37,342 nucleotides of DNA. Source: an actinobacterium acAMD-2. GTDB taxonomy: Bacteria > Actinomycetota > Actinomycetes > UBA12327. Location of the stretch: assembly GCA_000754455.1 (NCBI GenBank), contig JNSE01000029.1, positions 1 through 37,342 on the forward strand, read 5' to 3'. Under the pieces are notes generated by a model, which saw nothing but the letters and a program-made list of their open reading frames with translations, ran no database searches and had not been told where the DNA came from. The translations under genes and the position numbers were made by a program. The number at the start of each line of letters is the position of its first letter. Position 1 is the first letter of the stretch. Positions 642-14,656 of the stretch are shown here, in pieces.

Positions 642-2609
642 ATGGATATCAAGCGCATTCTTCGTGGTCCGATTGTCTGGATTGGCGTGGCCATCTTGGT
701 GGCCTTGCTGGCCGGTCAATTTATTTCCTCTGCCTCGGCACCTAAGAAGGTGGACACATCCGCGATCATCGCCTCGATCACCAAGGGCGATGCCAAGTCG
801 GCCACGATTGTTGATCGTGAGCAGCGTATTGAGATCGTGCTTAAAAATGGAGACAAGAAGCAATCTCAGTACGTGACAGGTCAGGGTGTGGAGTTGCAGC
901 AGCTCCTACAGACCAAGGTTGATGGTGGGCAACTCAGTGGCGGCTACAACATCAAGGTGCCTAAAGACAATGTCTTAATTTCTCTCCTTGCCACGTTGCT
1001 CCCCATAGCGATCATCGTTTTCTTGCTGTTCTTCTTCATGAACCAAGTGCAAGGTGGCGGATCCAAGGTCATGAACTTTGGTAAGTCCAAGGCCAAGATG
1101 ATGTCTAAGGACACCCCGCAGACCACGTTTGCTGATGTGGCTGGTGCGGACGAAGCCATTGAGGAACTAGAAGAGATCCGAGACTTTCTTACCGACCCTG
1201 CTCGTTACCAAGCCGTAGGCGCCAAGATCCCCAAGGGAGTATTGCTTTACGGCCCGCCCGGAACTGGAAAGACGCTGCTCGCCCGCGCTGTTGCTGGTGA
1301 AGCCGGCGTACCGTTCTATACGATTTCTGGTTCGGACTTTGTCGAAATGTTTGTCGGTGTTGGAGCATCACGAGTGCGCGACCTCTTCGAACAAGCAAAA
1401 GAAAACGCTCCCGCCATCATTTTCATTGATGAAATTGATGCGGTCGGTCGGCACCGTGGCGCAGGTCTGGGTGGTGGCCATGACGAGCGCGAGCAGACCC
1501 TGAACCAAATGTTGGTTGAGATGGACGGATTTGATGACAAGGGCACGGTCATTTTGATCGCGGCTACGAACCGACCTGACATCTTGGACCCAGCGTTGCT
1601 ACGTCCAGGCCGCTTTGACCGACAGATTGCCGTTGATCGCCCTGACCTGCAGGGACGCGCCGACATTTTGACGGTGCATGCCAAGGGCAAGCCCATTGAG
1701 CCCGAGGTGGACATGCTCGGTGTGGCTCGCCGAACCCCAGGCTTTACCGGTGCCGACCTAGCTAACGTCCTGAACGAGGCGGCCTTGTTGACGGCACGCC
1801 ATCACCTGACCATGGTGAATAAGGAATCCATGGATGAGGCCATCGACCGTGTTATTGCCGGTCCGCAAAAGCATTCCCGCGTGATGAGCGATCACGAGAA
1901 GTCGATCACTGCGTATCACGAAGGTGGCCACGCTCTGGTCGCCGCGGCATTGCAGAACACCGACCCAGTGCACAAGGTGACCATCTTGCCGCGCGGTCGT
2001 GCCTTGGGTTACACGATGGTGTTGCCCGACCAAGAAAAGTATTCAACAACGCGCAACGAAATGTTGGATCAGTTGGCGTACATGCTCGGTGGCCGGGCTG
2101 CCGAGGAATTGGTTTTCCACGACCCCACTACTGGGGCGTCAAATGACATTGAGAAAGCTACCTCTGTTGCTCGCGCCATGGTGACGCAATACGGCATGAC
2201 TGAGCGTCTGGGCGCCATTAAGTTTGGCCAGGAATCCGGTGAGGTGTTCTTGGGCCGCGACATGGGGCACCAACGGGACTATTCAGAGGCTGTAGCCGGC
2301 GTTATTGACGAAGAGGTGCGGCACTTGATCAATCAAGCCCACACGGAAGCCTACGAAATCCTGGTTGATAACCGCGACGTCCTCGATCGCCTGGTCCTTG
2401 AGCTGTTGGAAAAAGAAACGTTGGACAAGGAGCAAGTCGCGGAAATCTTTACCGATATCCGGAAGCGATCTGAGCGACCGAAGTGGACTGGATCCACTGA
2501 GCGCATCCCGGCAGCTGGGCCAATCTCCGTTCCCGCGAAGGTGAATGGCTCGGGATCTGTGCAGGTGGCTCACAACGATGTCACCTCTCACGACAAGCCC
2601 ACGGACTAA
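642..2609 (+). CDS. ftsH: ATP-dependent zinc metalloprotease FtsH
   Basis: This is a membrane-anchored AAA+ protease that degrades damaged or unassembled membrane proteins and some short-lived cytosolic ones. It has 655 residues, a normal actinobacterial length. One membrane segment lies near residues 11-30, an extracytoplasmic domain follows, and a second segment lies near 112-132. The AAA module has Walker A GPPGTGKT (204-211), Walker B FIDEID (261-266) and a second region of homology ending in RPGRFDRQI. The zinc site is HEGGH (426-430; HEAGH is more common). The C-terminal tail is low-complexity and probably flexible. It heads the folate gene run: folE begins five bases after its stop, as in Mycobacterium and Streptomyces. 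No good Shine-Dalgarno sits directly before the ATG, and the 129-nt region upstream probably carries the promoter. Confidence 0.97.
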
Positions 2610-2614
2610 TCCTC

Positions 2615-3256
2615 ATGACTGATCGTCTCGTGGAGCAAGCCGCTTCCATTGATCCGGTAACCGACCTGGTCAGTGATTTTCGAGATGTTCCGGCTTTTGA
2701 TCAAGAGCGTGCCGAGAAGGCAGTTCGTGAATTGCTTCTCGCTGTGGGTGAGGACCCAGATCGTGATGGGTTGTTGGACACGCCGGCCCGCGTTGCTCGC
2801 GCCTACCAGGAACTTTTCGCCGGTATGCACCAAAAGCCGGAGGATGTTTTAGCAACTACCTTTGACCTGGGTCACCATGAATTAGTCATCGTGAAAGATA
2901 TTGAGTTGTATTCGACATGTGAGCACCACTTAGTGCCGTTTTTCGGCCGTGCGCATGTGGGCTACCTGCCTAATGCTGAGGGTCGCATCACGGGCTTGTC
3001 GAAACTGGCTCGATTGGTGGATGTATTCGCTAAGCGCCCCCAAGTTCAAGAACGGCTCACGTCTCAAGTTGCTGATTCGTTGATGCGGGTTCTCGCGCCA
3101 GAGGGCGTGATCGTTGTTGTCGAGTGTGAGCACCTGTGCATGTCTATGCGGGGCATTCGCAAGCCAGGAGCTACGACGATCACGAGTGCTGTTCGTGGTG
3201 TCTTCGCCGACCCTGCGCTTCGTTCCGAGGCCATGACCTTGATCCGTGGTCACTGA
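2615..3256 (+). CDS. folE: GTP cyclohydrolase I
   Basis: It converts GTP to 7,8-dihydroneopterin triphosphate, the first step of tetrahydrofolate synthesis. The 213-residue protein carries the zinc-site motif CEHHLVPF, with Cys102 and His105, and the second part [12 protein letters not shown], whose Cys175 is the third expected zinc ligand by alignment with the E. coli enzyme. [18 protein letters not shown] is the conserved substrate-binding helix region. The N-terminal extension of about 25 residues is variable in the family. The ATG follows the ftsH stop by five bases and its 3' end overlaps folP by 11 bases, so translation is probably coupled. Confidence 0.97.
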
Positions 3257-4133
3257 TTCAGCTGTTGTTGTGAGGCATCCCAAAGGTTTACCTGCTGAGT
3301 TGAGCCAACTCCCGCGCACGTTGGTGGTGGGTGTGCTGAATGTGACACCGGATTCATTCAGCGATGGCGGCCACTATCTCGATCCGCAGCAAGCTATCGA
3401 GCATGGCCTTGAGTTGGTATCGCAGGGCGCTGACATCGTTGATGTGGGCGGCGAGTCCACCCGCCCAGGTGCCACTGCGATCGATAGCGAAACTGAATTG
3501 TCACGAGTGATCGAGGTTGTCATGGGTTTAGCCAGTGAAGGCATCCCGGTCAGCATCGATACTCGCCGATCGCAGGTGGCTGAACGTGCCCTAGAAGCCG
3601 GCGCTGTCTTGGTGAACGATGTCAGCGGTGGTCGTGGTGATGGGGCGATGTGGCCATTGATGGCCTCGGTCCACGTGCCCTATGTCCTGATGCATAACCG
3701 AGGCGAAGGTGCGAGCCAGGACAGTCTCGCCAACTATGGGGATGTGCTTGCTGAAGTTAAGCGGGAACTCTTTGAGCAGGTTGAGGCAGCTATTGCAGCC
3801 GGAGTAGATGAATCACGCATAGTTTTGGACCCAGGGATCGGTTTTGCAAAAAGAGCTGAACACAATTGGCCGCTTGTTCATCAAAGTGCCCTGGACGACA
3901 TGGCGTTGTGGGGATTTCCGGTTTTGCTGGGTGCCTCTCGCAAACGTTTTCTCGGCGTGCACGAGACAGGTGAGCCGCGAATCGATGATTCCATGGACAC
4001 TCGTGACGCGTTGACTGTCGAACTGACTCAACGAGCAGTGTCGTCAGGCCTTTGGGCTGTAAGAGTGCATCGCGTAGAGGCGAATGTGGCGGTGGTCAAC
4101 TCGTCTAGAGTGAGGTCAGAGGAGGCGCCATGA
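3246..4133 (+). CDS. folP: Dihydropteroate synthase
   Basis: It condenses 6-hydroxymethyl-7,8-dihydropterin pyrophosphate with p-aminobenzoate and is the target of sulfonamides. The (beta/alpha)8 enzyme shows the family signatures in order: [23 protein letters not shown], a DTRRS-type loop, [15 protein letters not shown] and the C-terminal GASRKRFLG. The track start is a GTG inside folE (11-nt overlap). A second in-frame GTG at 3270 would remove eight residues and is an equally possible start. The 295-residue length is normal. Its end overlaps folB in an ATGA. Confidence 0.96.
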
Positions 4134-4492
4134 CGGACATCATTGCTTTAACCGGTCTGCGGGCCTTCGGATATCACGGTGTCCTAGCCGAAGAGAAAGC
4201 AACAGGTCAGGAATTCGTTGTTGATCTGGCCTTGCATGTTGATACTGCTCGCGCTGCACGTACCGACGACCTAGCGGACACCGTTGATTATGGAGCACTG
4301 GCCCATGCCGTTGTCGCTGTCATTGAGGGTGAGCCGGTGGAGCTGATTGAGACGTTGGCGCAACGTATTGCTGATGTGGTGTTGATCGACACACGCGTTT
4401 CTACGGTCAACGTGGTGTTGCATAAACCCACGGCACCTATTCCGTTTGCTTTTTCCGATGTGCGCGTGGAGATTGAACGCTCGCAGCCATGA
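4130..4492 (+). CDS. folB: Dihydroneopterin aldolase
   Basis: It cleaves 7,8-dihydroneopterin to 6-hydroxymethyl-7,8-dihydropterin and glycolaldehyde, supplying the substrate of FolK. The 120-residue length is typical. The N-terminal GYHGVLAEEK carries the conserved Tyr and Glu region, TVDYGALA is the dimer and pterin-site motif, and LHKPTAPIPF holds the catalytic lysine. It overlaps folP upstream and folK downstream by four bases each (ATGA), so the three genes are almost certainly translated in series. Confidence 0.95.
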   Translation: MTDIIALTGLRAFGYHGVLAEEKATGQEFVVDLALHVDTARAARTDDLADTVDYGALAHAVVAVIEGEPVELIETLAQRIADVVLIDTRVSTVNVVLHKPTAPIPFAFSDVRVEIERSQP

Positions 4493-4998
4493 CACATCAC
4501 GTGGTGTTAAGTCTGGGTGCCAACCTCGGCGATCCGTTGGGCGCTTTGACGTCAGCGTTGGAGGCACTGGCGCAGACGGAGGGCGTGGAGGTGCTGGCAA
4601 CATCAAGTTTCTACGGCACAGCACCCATCGGTGGCCCAGATCAACCTGACTACATCAACGCCGTTGCTGTGCTGGAGACCACGTTGGCACCGATGGCGAT
4701 CCTTGACCTTGCTCACCGGATAGAAGCCGACCATGACCGAGTCCGGCAGGAGAGATGGGGGCCGCGCACCCTAGATATCGATTTGGTGGTTTACGACGAT
4801 GTGGTCAGTGAAGATCCCACGTTGACGATTCCCCACCCGCGGGCGCATCAACGCGCGTTCGTCCTGGTTCCATGGCACGAACTTGAACCCGACGCGGTGC
4901 TCGCGACTTTTGGCCCAATCGCTGATTTGATAGAGCATGTGAAGGATCAAGAAATTGCGGTTGTGGCAACGCCACATCACCCAGGCTCTACTCAATGA
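4489..4998 (+). CDS. folK: 2-amino-4-hydroxy-6-hydroxymethyldihydropteridine pyrophosphokinase
   Basis: It transfers pyrophosphate from ATP to 6-hydroxymethyl-7,8-dihydropterin, making the FolP substrate. The 169-residue protein shows LGANLGDP at the start, GPDQPDYINAVAVLET for pterin binding, and the magnesium and catalytic segment RWGPRTLDIDLVVYDD, with the two Asp of DIDL. IPHPRAHQRAFVLVPW follows. It sits in the ATGA-linked folate run between folB and the DUF3180 gene. Confidence 0.96.
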   Translation: MTHHVVLSLGANLGDPLGALTSALEALAQTEGVEVLATSSFYGTAPIGGPDQPDYINAVAVLETTLAPMAILDLAHRIEADHDRVRQERWGPRTLDIDLVVYDDVVSEDPTLTIPHPRAHQRAFVLVPWHELEPDAVLATFGPIADLIEHVKDQEIAVVATPHHPGSTQ

Positions 4999-5471
4999 AG
5001 CTCACCACCTGGCGTGACCTCTTAGGACCATTTTTGGTTTCCAGTGCTGTGAGCCTTGCGGTGTTTCGCGTTATTGGTGCACTGACGAGCACGGTTCCCA
5101 ATGTCCCCATCGCCGCTGTGTTCACAATGCTGGGTGTCAGCGTGGCATTCGGCATATTGACGTTAGTAGTTAGACCGCGGTTGAAACTCAGCCCCGGTCG
5201 TGAACCTCTTGACTCCCTGACAGCCGGCCGAGTAGTGGCCTTGGCATTTGCGAGCTCTCGCGCAGGTGTGGTGATCGGTGGAATTTTCGTTGGTTGGTTG
5301 GCAGCTGGATGGTTTGCCGACGCCTTGAACACACCGTTTGCTAAAACCCGTGCCTTGCACGCCGTTCTTTGCATTGTGCTCTCAGCAGCATTGGTCGCCA
5401 TTGGAGTGATTCTCGAGAGAGCGTGTGTTGTGCGGGTCCCGCGCGACGACAATGACCAACCCAAGGCATAA
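4995..5471 (+). CDS. DUF3180 family membrane protein
   Basis: This is a 158-residue integral membrane protein with four hydrophobic stretches, at about residues 11-32, 36-56, 79-105 and 122-142, joined by short charged loops. It matches in size, topology and position the DUF3180 proteins that follow folK across Actinobacteria (Rv3605c in M. tuberculosis, from memory). Its function is unknown. The ATG overlaps the folK stop by four bases. The conserved linkage to folate genes does not by itself show a role in folate metabolism. The stop codon TAA forms part of the presumed -10 element of the next gene. Confidence 0.85.
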   Translation: MKLTTWRDLLGPFLVSSAVSLAVFRVIGALTSTVPNVPIAAVFTMLGVSVAFGILTLVVRPRLKLSPGREPLDSLTAGRVVALAFASSRAGVVIGGIFVGWLAAGWFADALNTPFAKTRALHAVLCIVLSAALVAIGVILERACVVRVPRDDNDQPKA

Positions 5472-5480: not shown

Positions 5481-5771
5481 GTGACTGACAACCAAGCCCT
5501 TGAAGACCTGCCCTACATTGAACTTCGCGACAAGGCTTTTGACCTTGCTCGCGAGCGTCACGACCTCAAGTTCTTCCTTGAGTTGATGAATCACACCCCA
5601 GCCGCCGCTGCGATGGCAACTGAGGGCGGATCACTGGGTGAAATCAGCGGATCAATCGTGGAATCCATTGAGGCTGCTCGCGAAGCCTTCAGCGCAGATT
5701 CGGTGGGAGAGCTGGAGCCGTTGTTTGTGGCTCGATTTGCCACCTACATTCGAGAGCACACGTCTAAATAA
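5481..5771 (+). CDS. Small conserved hypothetical protein
   Basis: This is a 96-residue acidic soluble protein, predicted mostly helical (ELRDKAFDLARERHDLKFFLELMNH, then AAREAFSADSVGELEPLF), with no membrane segment, signal peptide or catalytic motif I recognise. The GTG start is supported by the leaderless -10 at 5469. It ends just before the convergent nuoD-like gene, and the 55 bases between them show no convincing terminator. Similar short proteins occur near this point of the actinobacterial folate region, but I cannot assign a function. Confidence 0.7.
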   Translation: MTDNQALEDLPYIELRDKAFDLARERHDLKFFLELMNHTPAAAAMATEGGSLGEISGSIVESIEAAREAFSADSVGELEPLFVARFATYIREHTSK

Positions 5772-5826: not shown

Positions 5827-6966
5827 CTACTTGTCGATGTCCCCGATGACGTAGACCATCGATTGCAAGAGTGGAACGAGGTCATCAATCGTGCAACCGG
5901 GAATGACCTGCGACAAAGCTTGTGCGTTGTTAAATGAAGCGGTCCGCATCTTTAAGCGCCATGGCATGGCCTTTCCTCGTGAGACGAGGTAATAGCCGCT
6001 AGTGCCCAGCGGCCCTTCGGTACTGACATACGTTGACCCCTCAGGTGCGCGCAACACCTTAGGAAGTTTGACGTTGACAGGTGCTCCGTTGAGTTCGTCA
6101 AGGTGCGGTAAGCAGGCATCAATCAGCGCAATGCTGAGCGTGAGGTGCTCAAACAAGCATTCATACCGTGCAAGGGCGTCACCGTCTGAACGTAAAACCG
6201 GTGTGAGGACTGACGAGAGTTCGCTATAGGCCAGGTAGGGGCTGCTACGACGTAAGTCAAGATCAACCCCAGTGGCGTGCGCAGCCACTCCGCTGACGCC
6301 AAAGTCAGCAACCGTGGATGCTGAGAGCACCCCCAGTCCCGTGAGTTGCGGTCCTAGGCGATCGAAAAGAACAGACTGCAAGTGCGGCAAAGTCTGACCC
6401 GCGAGATCAATCGCTTGCTTAACGTTTGTCGCCCAGGCCGGATCAACATCGGCCTTGAGACCTCCCACTTGATTCGCCATGAAGTGCAAACGCCCCCCGG
6501 TGGCCTGCTCCATGACCGCTTGAATGCCATCGCGGGCCTGCGAGGCAGGAGACGCACTCGCGAGATGAGGGTCTGGATACGCGACGGGGATGACGAAAGC
6601 GAGGTGGCTGAGCATTCGGTTGAGTTCATACATCGTGGTGCGCAACCACGTCGCCCGTTCGGGAACGCTCATGCCGATCAGTTGCTCAACAGCCAGAGCT
6701 ACTCCCACTTCACTAGCGAAGGCTCCGTGCCAGTCGTGGCGATTGGCTAGGCCGAGAATCTGTCGGTAATCGCGGGCTTCAAAGAGCTTTTCGGCGCCGC
6801 GATGCACATGGCCAATCAACGGCTGTGCGGATGCAATGCGATCACCGTCGAGACTGACTCGTAGGCGAATGAGTCCATGCGAGCTGGGGTGATGGGGACC
6901 TAATCGAAGTGCCAGATCTATGGCACCTGTTGGCGCAGTCGCTACATCGCCCACCGCAATGATCAT
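5827..6966 (-). CDS. Orphan NuoD-like protein (complex I 49-kDa subunit / hydrogenase large-subunit family)
   Basis: The 379-residue protein aligns along its length with NuoD/Nqo4. It has GPHHPSSHG near the start, HVHRGAEKLFEARDYRQ, a helical core, GTSGYYLVSRG and the terminal YVIGDIDK. No other complex I subunit is nearby. It parallels the second NuoD copy near the folate genes of Streptomyces (nuoD2, from memory). By gap-free local alignment to Thermus Nqo4, the quinone-site His38 is kept (His30), but the quinone-site Tyr87 is Trp (Trp79). The arginine that NDUFAF7 dimethylates in human NDUFS2 is present as Arg56 (HRG). The track start at 7119 adds 51 residues unlike NuoD that overlap the upstream gene. 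I use the ATG at 6966, four bases after the methyltransferase stop. Its role is unknown: it could be an accessory or regulatory paralogue, or part of another redox complex. Confidence 0.85.
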   Translation of the reverse strand: MIIAVGDVATAPTGAIDLALRLGPHHPSSHGLIRLRVSLDGDRIASAQPLIGHVHRGAEKLFEARDYRQILGLANRHDWHGAFASEVGVALAVEQLIGMSVPERATWLRTTMYELNRMLSHLAFVIPVAYPDPHLASASPASQARDGIQAVMEQATGGRLHFMANQVGGLKADVDPAWATNVKQAIDLAGQTLPHLQSVLFDRLGPQLTGLGVLSASTVADFGVSGVAAHATGVDLDLRRSSPYLAYSELSSVLTPVLRSDGDALARYECLFEHLTLSIALIDACLPHLDELNGAPVNVKLPKVLRAPEGSTYVSTEGPLGTSGYYLVSRGKAMPWRLKMRTASFNNAQALSQVIPGCTIDDLVPLLQSMVYVIGDIDK

Positions 6967-6970
6967 GGAG

Positions 6971-7975
6971 TTATCGTCCCATCCCAATGTGGTGAATGAG
7001 CCAGGTGAACGCGCCAAAGCCTTGGGTGTCTCGGGCCAGCTCTCGCTGGCTGTGTTGGGCGATGGCGACGAGCGCTTCGTGGGGTGATTGCGGTGTAGCC
7101 GACCGACCGAGGACGCCAAGTGCGTCTCGTTGACTCACCAGGACGGTGGTCACCGGAAGCGGGGCGCAGGCTTGTTCAGCGGCAACCGCACACGCATCAA
7201 GCGCGACGTGCGCGGTGATGTTCATTGAGCCATCCGGGACGGGTTGGCATGGGTATCCATGACGAAATCCAGTCAGTGTTCCCGGGGCGAAGGCGCCAAG
7301 AGATCGTTGCTCACGGGTGTGTGCGTAATCAATGGCGATAGCGATTCCAGTGGACACGCTTGACGCGATAACCGCCCAGACCTGATCGCGAGCAGCACCG
7401 ATTTCGACACGGCCACCCACCGATTGGTGTGGCCACCACCGGCTCACCCACTCACCATCGTTCGCGCTGATGGGTGCGCCAAGCTCCTCGTCACCAGTGG
7501 CTGGATTAACCATGACTTGGCGCAGAGTGAAGGACTCGTCGTATTGAGCAAGAGTGAGTGGAACATCGTCAAGAACTTCATGAGCAAAAATCAATCCACG
7601 AATGGACTCCGGCAGATGAGTGTCTACCGGCCCATGTATCCACTCAATGGTTGACGCGAGATGGGATGGGCGAGGGCGCAGTTCGATCACCCTGGCGCGA
7701 AAGGTGACAGTTGGATGCTGCTGTCCTGCGAGTGCGAGGACTTGAGCCATCAACGTGCCGTCGCCACCTCCGACCTCCCACACGTCTATGACGCCGAAAT
7801 ATCCGCCATCGTGTAGGTGCTCAACAACGTGGGTGAGGTGGTGAACCAATCCCTCGGCTACAGCCGTTGAGTGGCTAGGGGCGGTAGCGAAGTGATCAGC
7901 CGGCCATTCGCCCGAGTAGAACGTGTTAGCGGATCGTGTCCAGGCCTCTACCCACGGTTCCATGGGGCTATCCAA
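6971..7975 (-). CDS. MidA/NDUFAF7-type SAM-dependent methyltransferase (DUF185)
   Basis: This is a class I methyltransferase of 334 residues. It has the SAM-binding loop VWEVGGGDGTLMAQVL, the family motif FAHEVLDDVP (ANEVLDALP in relatives), IDYAHTREQ, the GTLTGFRHG motif and a C-terminal NITAHVALDAC (DITAHVDF in MidA). In human mitochondria the NDUFAF7 homologue dimethylates an Arg of the NuoD homologue NDUFS2. Here the gene lies four bases upstream of a nuoD-like gene, so the same modification is a natural inference. The start is ambiguous. TTG at 7975 has AAGGG six bases upstream and is used here. ATG at 7963 gives 330 residues but lacks a ribosome site. It is divergent from the DUF2520 gene. 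Confidence 0.85.
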   Translation of the reverse strand: MDSPMEPWVEAWTRSANTFYSGEWPADHFATAPSHSTAVAEGLVHHLTHVVEHLHDGGYFGVIDVWEVGGGDGTLMAQVLALAGQQHPTVTFRARVIELRPRPSHLASTIEWIHGPVDTHLPESIRGLIFAHEVLDDVPLTLAQYDESFTLRQVMVNPATGDEELGAPISANDGEWVSRWWPHQSVGGRVEIGAARDQVWAVIASSVSTGIAIAIDYAHTREQRSLGAFAPGTLTGFRHGYPCQPVPDGSMNITAHVALDACAVAAEQACAPLPVTTVLVSQRDALGVLGRSATPQSPHEALVAIAQHSQRELARDTQGFGAFTWLIHHIGMGR

Positions 7976-8021
7976 CCGCTACCCTTGAGATGATCGTCTG
8001 GTACCCGTCGCGGACTGGAAC

Positions 8022-8026
8022 GGAGG
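8022..8026 (+). promoter_or_regulatory. Shine-Dalgarno that fixes the DUF2520 start
   Basis: GGAGG lies five bases before the ATG at 8032. It supports that start over the upstream in-frame codon at 7936, which would overlap the divergent methyltransferase gene. Confidence 0.75.
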
Positions 8027-8031
8027 CACTC

Positions 8032-8937
8032 ATGGACAACTCGCCCACACGGCCAGCTCGCTTGCGAGTGGGTCTGATTGGTGCGGGTCGGGCCGGCTCT
8101 GTTGTCACCGCTGCACTTGCGCGTGCGGGTCACCAGATTGTTGCCGTTTCTGCTGTTTCGGACAAGTCAAAGGCGCGTGCGGCACAGTTACTCCCGCAGG
8201 CGGTGGTGTGCGATCCGCTGGCTGTGTGCGAACAGGCCGAGCTCGTGGTCTTGGCCGTTCCCGATGACGCTCTTGCTGATCTTGTCTCTGGATTGGTTCG
8301 AGCCGGTGCAATCTCAGCGGGAAAGATTGTTGTTCACCTGAGCGGTCGCTTTGGCAGTGAAGTCCTTGCTCCGGCTCACGAGGTGGGTGCGCTCTGTGTC
8401 GCTTTACATCCAGCGATGACGCTGACGGGTGAGGCCTACGAGGTTGATCGGCTTGATGGGTGCCCATTCGGTATCAGCGCTTCTGAGGAATCACGACCGG
8501 TTGCCGAAGCACTGGTGGTGGAAATGGGCGGTGAACCGCAATGGATTGAACCCAACGCACGCGTGGTGTATCACGCTGCGTTATCCCACGCGTCTAATCA
8601 CCTCGTCACCCTTATCGCGCAGTCGCAGGACATGCTTGCCGAAGCCGGAATCGAAAACCCCGGACAGTTCCTTGGCCCACTCACCTCAGCCTCGCTCGAC
8701 AATGCGCTGCGATGGGGCGATGGGGCTCTAACTGGTCCGGTATCTCGTGGTGACGCCGCCACAGTGGCCTCGCACGTAAGTGGATTAGCTGAGGCTGCGC
8801 AGTCGGCGACACAACGAAGTGGTGTGGAGACCTACGTTGCCCTGGCTAAGGCCACGGCGATTCGAGCGGCTAGCAGTCAGCGCATTACCGCCGGTCAGGC
8901 CGACGCAGTTCTTGATGCTTTGGCATCAGATGACTAG
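8032..8937 (+). CDS. Rossmann-fold oxidoreductase with DUF2520 domain
   Basis: This 301-residue protein has an N-terminal NAD(P)-binding Rossmann fold (VGLIGAGRAGSVVTAALARAG, then LVVLAVPDDALADL) and a helical C-terminal DUF2520 domain. The latter includes the conserved LHPAMTLTG and NHLVTLIAQSQDMLAEAG segments. The layout recalls ketopantoate reductase and 6-phosphogluconate dehydrogenase relatives. It overlaps panC by eight bases, as the homologous gene adjoins panC in mycobacteria (Rv3603c-panC, from memory). That linkage suggests a ketopantoate-reductase role in pantothenate synthesis, since no panE is seen here, but this is inference. From memory, the PanG-type reductases of other bacteria are relatives. 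The start is fixed by the GGAGG at 8022. Confidence 0.87.
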   Translation: MDNSPTRPARLRVGLIGAGRAGSVVTAALARAGHQIVAVSAVSDKSKARAAQLLPQAVVCDPLAVCEQAELVVLAVPDDALADLVSGLVRAGAISAGKIVVHLSGRFGSEVLAPAHEVGALCVALHPAMTLTGEAYEVDRLDGCPFGISASEESRPVAEALVVEMGGEPQWIEPNARVVYHAALSHASNHLVTLIAQSQDMLAEAGIENPGQFLGPLTSASLDNALRWGDGALTGPVSRGDAATVASHVSGLAEAAQSATQRSGVETYVALAKATAIRAASSQRITAGQADAVLDALASDD

Positions 8938-9796
8938 TCAGGAAGCGCCGATAGTGGCGCGAACAGTGGCGGAACTCAAAACCCAACTTGCCGATTTGCG
9001 AATTGAGCGCCCCAGTGCACCTGTGGTGTTCGTGCCAACCATGGGTGCGCTTCACGATGGGCATCGAGCGCTGATGACTCAAGCAAGTCACTACAACGGA
9101 ATATCAGTGGCTTCAATTTTTGTGAATCCCACGCAGTTTGGTCCCGACGAGGACCTGGCAAAGTATCCGCGCACCTGGGAAGCGGATTTACAACTATGCG
9201 CCGACGAGGGAATTGATGTTGTCTTCGCTCCCACTGTTGACCAGATGTACGGCGACCGTACTGAGAGCACGCTGTCGGCTGGACCTTTAGGTACGCGGCT
9301 AGAAGGAGCCCAGCGACCGGGTCACTTTGATGGTGTTGTCACCGTTGTTGCGAAGTTGTTTGACATGGTTCACCCGAATCGGGCCATTTTTGGTCAAAAG
9401 GATGCGCAGCAAGTGGCGGTCATCAGGGCGATGGTGCGCGATTTGGAATTACCTGTCGAGATTGAAGCATTCCCAACGGTGCGAGACAGTGATGGCTTGG
9501 CGATGTCATCTCGCAATGTCTATCTTTCAGACACTGAGCGCGAACAGGCGCTAGCTATTCCCCGCGCACTTGTCGCTGCATACCAAGCTGGCTCCGAGGG
9601 TGCACAAGCTGTACTAAAAGCTGCGACTAATGAACTAGCTGGTGAGCCTGAGGTGCACGTGCGGTATGTCGAGTTGGTGCATCCAGACACCCTTGAGGCG
9701 GTCTCTCCAACTTTTCATGGCCATGCGCTGTTGTTGATTGCAGCCATGGTGGGAACAACGCGCTTGATCGACAACTCAATGGTGACGGTGGGCTGA
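8930..9796 (+). CDS. panC: Pantothenate synthetase (pantoate-beta-alanine ligase)
   Basis: It joins pantoate and beta-alanine using ATP to give pantothenate. The 288-residue protein has the nucleotidyltransferase motifs VPTMGALHDGH (the HxGH of the fold) and NPTQFGPDEDLAKYPR, together with FGQKDAQQV and the KMSKS-equivalent MSSRNVYL. The track start at 8819 would add 37 residues of out-of-frame DUF2520 sequence. The ATG at 8930, overlapping the DUF2520 stop by eight bases, fits the family start. panB and panD are not in this window. Confidence 0.95.
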   Translation: MTSQEAPIVARTVAELKTQLADLRIERPSAPVVFVPTMGALHDGHRALMTQASHYNGISVASIFVNPTQFGPDEDLAKYPRTWEADLQLCADEGIDVVFAPTVDQMYGDRTESTLSAGPLGTRLEGAQRPGHFDGVVTVVAKLFDMVHPNRAIFGQKDAQQVAVIRAMVRDLELPVEIEAFPTVRDSDGLAMSSRNVYLSDTEREQALAIPRALVAAYQAGSEGAQAVLKAATNELAGEPEVHVRYVELVHPDTLEAVSPTFHGHALLLIAAMVGTTRLIDNSMVTVG

Positions 9797-9821
9797 CTAT
9801 GTCAATCACTACGGTGACCTC

Positions 9822-11465
9822 ATGAGTATTTTCGCGCGCCAACCCTTGGCTGGCCGCCTTCTAGCACCGGCACCAGGCTGGACCACGAGTGCGGATGTGG
9901 TAATCGTCGGTAGTGGCATCGCGGGTTTGAGTCTGGCCCTACAGGCCAGGCGAAGTGATCTCAAAGTTCTCGTGGTGACTAAGACCGTGCTCGATGCTGG
10001 AGCGACTCGATGGGCGCAAGGTGGCATCGCCGCCGCGGTCGGCCCAGGTGATACTCCCGAACAGCACGAATCAGACACCTTGATCGCCGGTGTCGACTTG
10101 TGCGATGTGCAGGCAGTGCATGCCTTGGTAACTGAGGGACCCACTGCGCTAGAAAATCTCATTGCGTTGGGTGCGGACTTTGATCGGGATGCTTCCGGTG
10201 ATATTGCGCTTACTCGTGAGGGTGGTCACCATCGCGATCGCATCGCACATGCTGGCGGAGATGCCACAGGTGCTGAGGTATCACGCGCGCTGATCTCCGC
10301 AGTTCAGGCCGATGTTGGCATTGAAGTGATTGAACATGCGTTGGCCCTGGACTTACTTTTTGATGATCGCCGAGCAGTAGCAGGAATCACGCTGCACGTG
10401 ATTGGTGAAGGAACCCGCGATGGAGTGGGAGCGGTACATGCGCGCGCAGTGGTCTTGGCCACTGGAGGACTGGGGCAAACCTTTGCTCAAACCACAAACC
10501 CTGAGGTATCAACCGGGGATGGGGTGGCCATAGCTCTGCGAGGCGGAGCAACAGTTGCTGACATGGAGTTTGTGCAGTTCCATCCCACTGTTTTATGGCT
10601 CGGCCCTGGCTCGCGAGGGCAGCAACCGTTGGTGTCAGAGGCCGTGCGGGGCGAAGGCGCCTTCCTGGTTGACGATGCAGGCCGACGTTTCATGCACGGT
10701 ATCCATGAAATGGCGGATCTAGCTCCGCGCGATGTGGTGGCCAAAGCCATCATGCAACAGATGATCGAAACCGGTGCTCCGCACGTATGGCTTGACGGTC
10801 GCGAATTGGGCCAAGAAGTATGGGAAAATAGATTCCCCACCATCCTTGAATCGTGCCGCTTGCACGGCGTTGATCCCGTGACGGAATTGATTCCCGTTGC
10901 ACCGGCAGCGCACTACGCCAGCGGTGGAATCCTTACTGATCTTTCCGGGCGAACCAATGTTGAGGGTTTGTATGCCTGCGGGGAGTGTGCATGTACTGGA
11001 GTGCATGGTGCGAACCGGTTGGCCTCAAACTCTTTGCTGGAAGGTTTGGTGTTTGCCTCTCGGATTGCTCAGCATTTGGCCACCGACCTAGCGAGCCCAG
11101 GCGAGCCGAAGCCCGATGAACGAGTCCCTGCCCTTTTGACGCCCGAAGTACGCGAGCACGTGGCCTCGACAATGACTGATGGCGCAGGAGTTTTGCGTTC
11201 ACGTCGATCATTAGGACGAACGTTGTCGCGCTTACTGGAGCTGCGGTCGTGGCAATCCCAGCAGCCCTGTGTTGAAGCGTGGGAAGCAACCAATGTGCAT
11301 AGCGTGGCGACGTTTATCGCAGCCGCTGCGCGCGAGCGGGAAGAAACACGAGGAAGTCACTGGCGCGAGGACTTCCCTGAGCCCGATGACCTGCATTGGC
11401 GGGCGCGCATTAATAGTCAGTTAGTCGAAGGCACCGTCCACACCACAGTGAGGCCTATTTCATGA
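9822..11465 (+). CDS. nadB: L-aspartate oxidase
   Basis: This FAD enzyme oxidises L-aspartate to iminoaspartate, the entry to de novo NAD synthesis. The 547-residue protein shows the dinucleotide-binding VVIVGSGIAGLSLALQA, the family segments TRWAQGGIAAAV and HHRDRIAHAGGDATG, the active-site region EFVQFHPTVLW, ACTGVHGANRLASNSLLEG, and the C-terminal helical domain of the fumarate reductase/succinate dehydrogenase flavoprotein family. The ATG is 25 bases after panC. Its last four bases overlap nadC. The quinolinate synthase partner NadA is not in the window. Confidence 0.96.
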   Translation: MSIFARQPLAGRLLAPAPGWTTSADVVIVGSGIAGLSLALQARRSDLKVLVVTKTVLDAGATRWAQGGIAAAVGPGDTPEQHESDTLIAGVDLCDVQAVHALVTEGPTALENLIALGADFDRDASGDIALTREGGHHRDRIAHAGGDATGAEVSRALISAVQADVGIEVIEHALALDLLFDDRRAVAGITLHVIGEGTRDGVGAVHARAVVLATGGLGQTFAQTTNPEVSTGDGVAIALRGGATVADMEFVQFHPTVLWLGPGSRGQQPLVSEAVRGEGAFLVDDAGRRFMHGIHEMADLAPRDVVAKAIMQQMIETGAPHVWLDGRELGQEVWENRFPTILESCRLHGVDPVTELIPVAPAAHYASGGILTDLSGRTNVEGLYACGECACTGVHGANRLASNSLLEGLVFASRIAQHLATDLASPGEPKPDERVPALLTPEVREHVASTMTDGAGVLRSRRSLGRTLSRLLELRSWQSQQPCVEAWEATNVHSVATFIAAAAREREETRGSHWREDFPEPDDLHWRARINSQLVEGTVHTTVRPIS

Positions 11466-12355
11466 CACTCAGCAGTGCACTGTCTGACCAAATTCGCGGG
11501 GCCGGGCTTGATCCAGCCGATATTGAGGCTGTCATTGAGCGATCCCTGGCCGAAGACTTGGCCGGTGGGGTCGACGTCACCTCGGTTGCCACTGTTCCTG
11601 CCACGCAACAGTCAATCTTGAAGTTGGTCGCTCGTGAAAGTGGTGTTGTGGCGGGCGTCGTGGCCGCATGTGCGGCGTTTGAGGTCGTGGGGCAAGGTCG
11701 CATTGCGGTTTCCGCCAACGTTGTTGATGGAGCATCAGTAGACGCGGGCAGTTGCGTCGTGACAGCGACCGGGCCCACAGTGGACTTGCTGACAGCAGAG
11801 CGAACAGCGCTGAATCTGTTGTGTCACCTGTCGGGTATTGCAACGCTGACTGCTCGCTGGGTAAGTGCAGTCGCGGGAACCGATGCTGCAATCCGCGATA
11901 CCCGAAAGACTACACCGGGGTTGCGATCGCTGGAGAAGTTTGCCGTGCGATGTGGGGGTGGAGTTAATCACCGGATGTCACTTTCCGACGCCGCCTTGGT
12001 GAAGGACAACCATGTTCTGGCTGCGGGCGGTGTTGAGGCCGCCTTTTCAGCGGTTCGCGCCATGTGGCCCGATCTTGACGTTGAAGTTGAGGTCGATTCA
12101 CTCGAGCAGTTAGACGAAGTCCTTGGTGCTGGTGCGGACTTAGTTCTGTTGGACAACTTCACCGTTGCGCAAACCCGCGAAGCCGTGCGAGCCACAGCTG
12201 GTCGAGCTCGACTCGAATCCAGCGGGGGATTGAGCCTGAGTGTGGCTCGAGATTATGCCGAAACCGGCGTTGATTTCCTCGCCGTCGGCGCCTTGACACA
12301 TTCCGCACCTGTGCTTGATGTCGGCGGAGACCTAGAGCAAGTACGGGAGGCCTGA
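11462..12355 (+). CDS. nadC: Nicotinate-nucleotide pyrophosphorylase (quinolinate phosphoribosyltransferase)
   Basis: It converts quinolinate and PRPP to nicotinate mononucleotide. The 297-residue protein carries the type II PRTase signatures: [24 protein letters not shown], the substrate-binding [44 protein letters not shown] and [20 protein letters not shown]. It is linked to nadB by an ATGA overlap and to coaX by a single-base gap, so nadB-nadC-coaX are probably translated together. Confidence 0.96.
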
Positions 12356-12356
12356 G

Positions 12357-13118
12357 ATGTTGCTCGCCATTGATGTGGGAAACACCAACACTGTTCTTGG
12401 ACTGTTTGATGGCGAGAGCCTGCATCAGTCATGGCGGATCAAGACTGATGCTCGAGATACAGCAGACGAACTCCATGTCATGTACCGGGGCTTGTTGGCT
12501 CAATCCCCTGACTTTTCTGGGATTGCTTTGTGCTCGACCGTCCCATCCACTCTGCGTGAAATGCGGAGCATGCTCAACCGCTATTACTCGGATATCGAAA
12601 CGGTCATTGTTGAGCCCGGAACCCGCACCGGTGTCCCCGTGCTTACCGATAACCCCAAGGAAGTGGGTGCGGATCGCATTGTCAATACGCTGGCAACACA
12701 CCATCTTTTTGGTGGGCCGGCCATCGTGGTGGACTTCGGCACTTCCACAAATTTGGACGTCGTCAGCGACAAGGGAGAATTCCTCGGTGGTGCTTTAGCG
12801 CCAGGAATTGAAATCTCCATTGATGCCCTCGCGGCTCGGGCGGCGCAACTGCGCAAGGTGGAATTGGTCAGGCCGCGTTCGGTCATTGGCAAGAACACCG
12901 TTGAAGCGCTGCAAAGTGGGGCCTTGTATGGCTTCGCTGGACAGGTCGATGGCTTGGTAGATCGCATTGAAGAGGAGCTCGGTCACGTTCAGGCTGTCGT
13001 CGCCACAGGTGGCTTGGCTCCCCTTGTCGTTGAGGAGTCACGCACGATCACCCATCATGAGCCCGATCTCACACTCATTGGGCTGCGTTTGGTGTTTGAG
13101 CGCAACACAGCTTCCTAG
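12357..13118 (+). CDS. coaX: Type III pantothenate kinase
   Basis: It phosphorylates pantothenate in the first committed step to coenzyme A. The 253-residue protein belongs to the acetate/sugar kinase-Hsc70-actin superfamily. It has the PHOSPHATE-1 motif [17 protein letters not shown], the catalytic-Asp segment [19 protein letters not shown]-2 [13 protein letters not shown] and the [12 protein letters not shown] motif. A GGGAGG-type ribosome site lies just before the ATG. Having panC and coaX in one run puts two coenzyme A steps under common control. Confidence 0.95.
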
Positions 13119-13129
13119 GCAGACACGGC

Positions 13130-13135
13130 TAAACT
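13130..13135 (+). promoter_or_regulatory. Putative leaderless -10 element for lysS
   Basis: TAAACT ends six bases before the lysS GTG, with no Shine-Dalgarno between them. This suggests lysS has its own promoter despite closely following coaX. No clear -35 is seen. Confidence 0.45.
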
Positions 13136-13141
13136 GCGAGG

Positions 13142-14656
13142 GTGAACCAAGGACCAGAAGTCTCCGATCTCGATGATCTTCCAGAGCAAATGCGCATTCG
13201 CCGCGAAAAGCTCGATCGATTGCGGGCGGAAGGCGTAGATCCCTACCCCGTTGGCTTTGCCCGCACGACCACCTTGGCTCAACTGCGCACCGATTTTCCT
13301 GATCTCGAACCCGACGCGTCCACCGGCGTAGAGGTGGGCATCGTGGGGCGCGTTATTTTGCGTCGCGACGGCGGCAAGTTGTGCTTTGCTACTTTGCGTG
13401 ATGGATCAGGTGACCTGCAAGTCATGTTGCCCATCGATACCGTGGGCGAAGACCGGCTCAAGGCGTGGAAGACCGACGTTGACATTGGTGACCACGTAGG
13501 CATCATCGGTGAAGTGGTCTGTAGTCGCCGTGGGGAACTTTCGGTCAAGGCCTCGAGCTGGATTATCACCAGTAAGTGTCTGCGTCCGCTGCCCGAGAAG
13601 TTCAAGGGTCTGACTGACCCTGAGGCGCGCGTGCGCCAGCGCTATGTCGACCTGATCGTTCGTCCAGAGGCTCGGGAAATGTTGCAGATGCGCGCAACCG
13701 CCGTGGCTTCCGTGCGCAACTCGCTCACCACACGTGGATTTGTTGAAGTCGAAACGCCGATGTTGCAGGCCATTCACGGTGGGGCCAATGCTCGACCCTT
13801 CACCACCCACATCAATGCCTACGACATGGAATTGTTTCTTCGCATTGCCCCAGAGCTGTATCTCAAGCGTTTGCTTGTCGGTGGAATCGAAAAAGTTTTT
13901 GAGATCAACCGCAACTTCCGCAACGAAGGCGCTGACTCTTCACACAATCCTGAGTTCACGATGCTGGAGATGTATCAGGCGTATGGTGACTACAACTCGA
14001 TGCGTGAGCTGACGCAACAGGTCATTCACGAAGCGGCACTTGCTGTGCACGGGGATCTCTTAGTGCGCCATCGCGATGACGAGGGCAACGTCAGCGAGTA
14101 CGACATCAGTGGTGATTGGCCGGTTATCCCGATCAATCGCGGCATCAGCGAGGCCTTAGGCGAAGAACTCACGGCAGACACAGAGGCTGACCAACTGCGC
14201 ACGTGGTGTGCCAGTGCAGATATCGCGCTGGATCCAGCCTGGGGCCGCGGTCAGATCGTCCTGGAAATGTACGAACACCTGCTCGAGTCACGTACGACAG
14301 CTCCGACCTTCTATACGGATTTCCCCACCGAGGTGTCACCACTTACGCGTCAACACCGTGAAGACCCGAGGTTGGCTGAGCGTTGGGATTTGGTGGCCTT
14401 CGGATCAGAAGTAGGTACTGCCTATAGCGAATTGGTTGATCCCGTTGAGCAACGTGCTCGCCTAACCGCACAATCTTTGTTGGCTACGGGGGGCGATGTT
14501 GAGGCCATGGCTTTGGACGAGGACTTCCTGCGCGCGTTGGAATTTGCGATGCCGCCAGCTGGAGGCCAAGGAATGGGAATTGACCGACTCTTGATGATGC
14601 TGACCGGACGCAGTATTCGTGAAACCGTGTTGTTCCCCCTGGTCCGGCCCGAATGA
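13142..14656 (+). CDS. lysS: Lysyl-tRNA synthetase, class II
   Basis: It charges tRNA-Lys. The 504-residue protein has the N-terminal OB-fold anticodon-binding domain (about residues 60-150, RDGSGDLQVML). The class II catalytic core follows, with motif 2 FRNEGADSSHNPEFTMLEMYQAYGDY and motif 3 GMGIDRLLMMLTGRSIRETVLFPL. The extreme N-terminus MNQGPEVSDLDDLPEQMRIRREKLDRLRAEGVDPYP is usual for the family. The GTG start fits the leaderless -10 at 13130. It overlaps the next gene by four bases. Confidence 0.97.
   Translation: MNQGPEVSDLDDLPEQMRIRREKLDRLRAEGVDPYPVGFARTTTLAQLRTDFPDLEPDASTGVEVGIVGRVILRRDGGKLCFATLRDGSGDLQVMLPIDTVGEDRLKAWKTDVDIGDHVGIIGEVVCSRRGELSVKASSWIITSKCLRPLPEKFKGLTDPEARVRQRYVDLIVRPEAREMLQMRATAVASVRNSLTTRGFVEVETPMLQAIHGGANARPFTTHINAYDMELFLRIAPELYLKRLLVGGIEKVFEINRNFRNEGADSSHNPEFTMLEMYQAYGDYNSMRELTQQVIHEAALAVHGDLLVRHRDDEGNVSEYDISGDWPVIPINRGISEALGEELTADTEADQLRTWCASADIALDPAWGRGQIVLEMYEHLLESRTTAPTFYTDFPTEVSPLTRQHREDPRLAERWDLVAFGSEVGTAYSELVDPVEQRARLTAQSLLATGGDVEAMALDEDFLRALEFAMPPAGGQGMGIDRLLMMLTGRSIRETVLFPLVRPE

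Follow-up and report, generated by a model that had tools for sequence, protein, structure and literature searches.

A Trp-Type NuoD Best Read as the Relocated D Subunit of a Second Complex I-Like Enzyme Without an NADH Module in Actinomycetota

The window (the whole stretch of DNA analysed, 37,342 nucleotides long) carries a gene, nuoD2, that is best read from sequence comparisons as encoding the relocated D subunit of a complex I-like enzyme that has no NADH module, a second and little-studied one in Actinomycetota, here called Nuo2. At a probability of roughly 60%, we take NuoD2 to be the D subunit of an enzyme that has Trp at the quinone-site tyrosine position throughout the phylum sample, that pairs NuoD2 with NuoB2, that likely carries a methylated Arg56, that is fed by a ferredoxin-type donor and that, in its reduced branch, is likely soluble. 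This reading draws on homology, fixation of the Trp, the gene sets, Arg/Thr covariation, co-occurrence with a methyltransferase and purifying selection.

NuoD2 and its Trp

The features of the window that matter here are as follows.

5827-6966, minus strand: nuoD2, Trp-type NuoD of 379 aa (PF00346, Nqo4 match, clade alignment, dN/dS of about 0.06)
6971-7975, minus strand: methyltransferase of PF02636 (NDUFAF7/MidA family), start TTG at 7975 or ATG at 7963 (68.7 bits, cut-off 23.3)
6877-6879, minus strand: codon of His30, counterpart of Nqo4 His38 (alignment; invariant in the clade)
6799-6801, minus strand: codon of Arg56 in the HRG motif, equivalent to human NDUFS2 Arg85 and a predicted methylation site (invariant in 28 of 28)
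6730-6732, minus strand: codon of Trp79, where Nqo4 has Tyr87, the quinone head-group tyrosine (alignments, reading frame)
6538-6570, minus strand: residues 133-143, site of the lost GAITPxFYAFR segment (Nqo4 141-151; alignment)

The frame of nuoD2 runs on the minus strand from an ATG at 6966 to a stop ending at 5827, and the opposite, plus strand is rich in stops. Its product is a full-length 49-kDa subunit (PF00346 at 152 bits) that matched Thermus Nqo4 in the PDB (2fug_4, E = 3.8e-52, 181 bits), with cyanobacterial NdhH also among its best solved relatives (179 bits). It scored below the NCBIfam NuoD equivalog cut-offs and is about 30% identical to the canonical NuoD of its own genome. An AlphaFold model (pLDDT 81.5) predicts an intact NuoD fold that matched many complex I D chains in Foldseek (E = 1e-19 to 1e-21); around residues 26-28 and 53-57 its confidence is too low for a judgement of pocket geometry. 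The dN/dS of nuoD2 indicates purifying selection. A single-protein scan of genome contigs gave one relative only, and the distribution of NuoD2 was therefore read from related genomes; the genome of the window itself comprises 973,534 bases and is 60% complete.

On the plus strand, nuoD2 and the methyltransferase gene are flanked by an ftsH-DUF3180 stretch (642-5471) and by a pantothenate/NAD/CoA/lysS stretch (7936-14656) that holds panC, a nadB-like flavoprotein gene, the type III pantothenate kinase gene and lysS. A 96-aa open reading frame at 5481-5771 of the window (plus strand), convergent with nuoD2, matched no Pfam or NCBIfam family. A metagenome-derived contig titled Bifidobacterium breve (CALQPL010000143.1; L035) contains a nuoD2 of 95% identity together with the methyltransferase gene; the title is probably wrong.

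The initial annotation placed Trp79 at Nqo4 Tyr87, with His30 kept and a spacing of 49 residues, and we obtained the same gap-free alignment: His30 falls on His38 and Trp79 on Tyr87, and the distance is 49 residues in either protein. NuoD2 thus has the quinone-site His of the NuoD family and a Trp where the family has its Tyr, a residue that has been called strictly conserved and that protonates the quinone (PMC8119997, PMC8138167). Trp was found in every homologue first read in the window's class (49 to 95% identity) and in all 60 clade sequences, sister classes included. The 20 other NuoDs compared (canonical actinobacterial ones, those of other lineages of the phylum and Nqo4) all have Tyr; these numbers cover one phylum plus relatives from the PDB match list and the literature. 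In only three alignment columns do the two groups separate this cleanly: in the clade, Nqo4 Leu62 is replaced by Met, Tyr87 by Trp and, close to the C terminus, an Arg by Leu. Of these, the Tyr87 column alone has no exception on either side. In a maximum-likelihood tree, a single Tyr/Trp change suffices, and the branch that bears it has 98% SH-aLRT support. The Trp is neither a private change nor an error. Loss of Nqo4 Asp139 was dropped as a second clade-specific change at the quinone site, since Glu occupies that position in the genome's own canonical NuoD as well.

It had been suggested to check for a complete nuo operon elsewhere in the genome and for members of the clade without the Trp. 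Indeed, contig C36 of the same genome contains a complete canonical nuoA-N operon (14 subunits) whose NuoD has the Tyr (RMDYLSP), and Trp is absent from no clade member; with Tyr in the bona fide NuoD and Trp throughout the clade, the initial annotation stands on this point.

Partners of NuoD2

A search for NuoB showed a second copy on contig C36, in the following neighbourhood.

C36 26632-27078: nuoB2
C36 27075-27506: nuoC2, after nuoB2
C36 27503-27844: nuoI2, after nuoC2, 113 aa with two clusters
C36 23623-26533 of the same genome (G000; 8623-11533 of locus L066), minus strand: korA/korB, 2-oxoacid:ferredoxin oxidoreductase, divergent from nuoB2

A local search of all open reading frames of the window with the nuo set gave no other complex I gene. 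The earlier statement that no complex I gene is nearby is thus correct within the window, but a lack of complex I partners is not supported: another contig of the genome encodes NuoB2, NuoC2 and NuoI2, and with their discovery a loner NuoD was rejected. Larger relatives have a nuo2 cluster of A2, B2, C2, H2, I2, J2, K2, L2, M2 and N2, without D, E, F and G, and encode NuoD2 elsewhere in the genome. In sister classes, the Trp-type nuoD sits in its normal place in a linked A2-B2-C2-D2-H2-I2-J2-K2-L2-M2-N2 operon without E, F and G (24 loci, some partly outside the stretch read). The clade therefore has the 11-subunit gene set, linked in operons in sister classes and with D encoded separately in full members of the window's class. 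Since linked Trp-type operons exist in sister classes and the nuo2 clusters of the window's class have no D, the best reading of the orphan is a displaced D subunit, and the earlier proposal that the protein serves another complex gains support from both the second nuo set and the linked operons. The initial annotation had also tied the Trp to orphanhood. This does not hold: Trp is fixed in the NuoDs of the linked operons as well, so the residue is independent of gene relocation, and relocation was rejected as its cause.

NuoB2 was found in 35 of 35 relatives with NuoD2 and, by direct search, in 0 of 21 relatives without it. In three genomes NuoB2 was present and NuoD2 was not found (G004, G018 and G045; 93, 72 and 85% complete, absence calls resting on assembly completeness). 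Moreover, the residues around cluster N2 point to pairing of the two proteins. An Arg next to N2 is contributed either by NuoD (human Arg85, Yarrowia Arg121) or by NuoB (Thermus Arg83, with Thr in Nqo4), the two side chains filling the same space (PMC8042128, PMC3829151). Both residues could be read in 41 pairs of linked NuoB and NuoD from the phylum; 31 were Thr/Arg, 10 were Arg/Thr and none was mixed. Canonical actinobacterial pairs are Arg/Thr; NuoB2 has Thr wherever the residue is readable, and NuoD2 always has Arg, in the split class as well. With NuoB2, NuoD2 gives one Arg at N2 and is compatible, but it is incompatible there with canonical NuoB. The Arg/Thr state therefore assigns the relocated NuoD2 to NuoB2 and away from canonical NuoB, and the two would pair physically around N2.

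This Arg may also be modified. The PF02636 protein (METHYLTRANSFERASE) is encoded 4 bp upstream of nuoD2 on the same strand, and a single copy was found in the genome. As a lone query it found no solved relative; the profile of its family does match 5ztz, an NDUFAF7 homologue of known structure (4e-39). Human NDUFAF7 dimethylates NDUFS2 Arg85 (PMC3829151), and the Arg is modified in Paracoccus, whereas the E. coli counterpart is unmodified (PMC8042128). PF02636 was found in three control genomes; E. coli is not among them. In a first sample of 60 relatives, 33 had PF02636, 32 of these together with NuoD2; put differently, it occurred in 32 of 35 genomes with NuoD2 versus 1 of 25 without (that one being 72% complete), and in 31 of the 32 the two genes lie on one contig within about 5.5 kb. 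In a second sample it was found in 26 of 27 NuoD2-bearing genomes of the class, the 27th having a local-profile match beside nuoD2, and in 0 of 33 listed class genomes without NuoD2, the genomes behind these counts not being phylogenetically independent. In sister classes, the methyltransferase gene ends the operon in 11 loci read and adjoins a split nuoD2 in 5; a further 6 sister-class genomes have linked Trp-type operons and no PF02636 protein, so the methyltransferase is not indispensable. The methyltransferase and NuoD2 are thus linked, though separable. Since its gene adjoins nuoD2 and tracks NuoD2 across the class, methylation of Arg56 is predicted, and the neighbouring enzyme of NDUFAF7 type likely acts on this residue; with Thr at this position, the genome's canonical NuoD offers no target. 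Genomics would thereby tie a methyltransferase of the NDUFAF7/MidA family to one specific substrate.

A candidate donor lies beside nuo2. korAB adjoins the cluster in many relatives, and this conserved neighbourhood suggests KorAB as the electron donor; that it is next to nuoB2 in 11 of 16 reduced loci and in only some full ones, within the stretches read, is a point against our main explanation.

The stripped lineage and alternative readings

In the window's class nuoD2 lies apart, and some lineages keep the rest of Nuo2 while others keep only B2, C2 and I2. The 35 relatives with NuoD2 comprise 20 with a full (or contig-cut full) nuo2 set, 1 with a decaying set (G034) and 14 with B2-C2-I2 only. 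In G034 (L094, C1:449000-459000), A2, B2, C2 and I2 are kept, NuoH2 is truncated and J2 to N2 were not found in the stretch, an intermediate of reduction. No second membrane arm was found in the window's lineage, in which only B2, C2 and I2 accompany NuoD2; a single NuoH was found in the window's genome (60% complete) and in the reduced G003, G017 and G049 (each 100% complete). The reduced NuoD2s (n = 10 in the tree) form one branch with 99% support. They have lost the GAITPxFYAFR segment that is conserved in 50 full and operon NuoD2 sequences, and the reduced NuoB2s are without an R[HY]D..R.G....PRQAD segment. Judging by position in known structures, both segments presumably point towards the quinone tunnel and the subunits of the membrane arm. 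In the reduced form, NuoD2, the methyltransferase, B2, C2 and I2 are all under purifying selection (dN/dS of about 0.02 to 0.19). With the membrane arm and the facing segments of B2 and D2 gone, the module would be soluble and off the membrane quinone, and B2-C2-D2-I2 in the window's lineage is most likely a soluble, quinone-independent Fe-S electron transfer module. Complex I would here have been cut down to a core around N2, and G034 would still show an intermediate stage.

In full forms, the quinone-tunnel and E-channel segments of NuoH2 are altered: in L071, L072, L075, L082 and others, GPMYAG replaces the GPNRVG of canonical NuoH, and PVADSEI replaces its PEAEGEL. NuoH2 probably shares the GPxYAG segment with cyanobacterial NdhA.

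Would the Trp enzyme still use quinone? Nuo2 might remain a ferredoxin:menaquinone oxidoreductase in which Trp covers part of the task of the Tyr, the reduced B2-C2-D2-I2 docking on the canonical membrane arm as a ferredoxin-fed peripheral arm. His30 and the HPSSHG loop are retained, and the former would suit continued quinone binding, a point against our main explanation; full forms retain NuoH2 and all antiporter-like subunits, canonical NuoH is still present in reduced lineages, and other 11-subunit complexes have been proposed to feed menaquinone from ferredoxin (PMC11238625). However, the replaced Tyr is described as strictly conserved and protonates the quinone, NuoH2 differs in tunnel and E-channel segments, and docking is at odds with the loss, in reduced B2 and D2, of segments thought to face the membrane arm. 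We regard this alternative as somewhat unlikely. The purely regulatory role raised by the initial annotation found no support: a stand-alone regulator or assembly factor of canonical complex I would agree with the separation of nuoD2, in the window's class, from the remaining nuo genes and with a canonical NuoD always present there where sought, but the linked operons of sister classes, an Arg/Thr state suited to NuoB2 rather than canonical NuoB, and the tracking of NuoB2 by NuoD2 make it quite improbable. That nuoD2 is a decaying pseudogene or an assembly artefact, as its reduced form, lost motifs and 60%-complete genome might suggest, is hardly credible given a 379-codon open frame, a dN/dS of about 0.06 and the same arrangement in the related G002 and G003 and in many other families.

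If NuoD2 is indeed the D subunit of an NADH-module-less Nuo2, the ancestral enzyme would have been A-B-C-D-H-I-J-K-L-M-N. Electrons would pass from KorAB, the best donor candidate, or from its ferredoxin to NuoI2, on to N2 in NuoB2, which the methylated Arg56 would stabilise, and finally to the occupant of the Trp-lined NuoD2 pocket; in full forms this flow may continue to power the second membrane arm. It is plausible that Trp-type NuoD has lost classical quinone reduction, most so in the window's reduced lineage, and the acceptor at the Trp site of that stripped lineage is likely a non-quinone. Only tentatively, at less than even odds, do we extend this to a history in which the Tyr-to-Trp switch moved the clade-wide enzyme off quinone and one branch then shed the membrane arm, leaving a soluble, methyltransferase-matured B2-C2-D2-I2 that delivers 2-oxoacid electrons to an acceptor in the old quinone pocket. 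The quinone-site Tyr is seen as central to coupling quinone chemistry with proton pumping, and a Trp lineage under selection is a natural experiment.

Comparison with known systems

NuoD2 shares with canonical NuoD, Nqo4 and NDUFS2 the fold, His30 and the first His of the N2 motif; it differs in Trp79, in its partners and in an Arg/Thr state opposite to that of its own canonical NuoD. As in the case of NDUFAF7/MidA and NDUFS2 Arg85 (PMC3829151), a PF02636 gene goes with a NuoD bearing the target Arg, here as its direct neighbour and with the modification predicted from sequence; unlike in that system, the canonical NuoD of the host has Thr and no target. Like the 11-subunit enzymes of Desulfitobacterium (PMC11238625) and the cyanobacterial NDH-1, Nuo2 is without NuoE, NuoF and NuoG and likely has a ferredoxin-type donor, but it has Trp for Tyr at the quinone head-group site, a relocated D, an attached methyltransferase and one branch without a membrane arm.

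The nuo2 cluster of Streptomyces coelicolor (SCO4599-SCO4608) was reported to be without NuoCDEFG and L, and its function was called unclear (PMC9239103). Like the clusters described here, which occur in the same form in G022 and other class relatives of 8 to 10 Mb, it is a second nuo cluster beside a canonical one and without D, E, F and G; in contrast to the published listing, C2 and L2 were recognised in the relatives. We propose that its missing D is a Trp-type NuoD2 encoded far from the cluster, very likely an orthologue of the window's protein, the SCO genes being matched by published description. The candidate Streptomyces gene is SCO3392, for which a literature search gave no paper. 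The Streptomyces nuo2 cluster, reported without a D subunit, now has one proposed for it.
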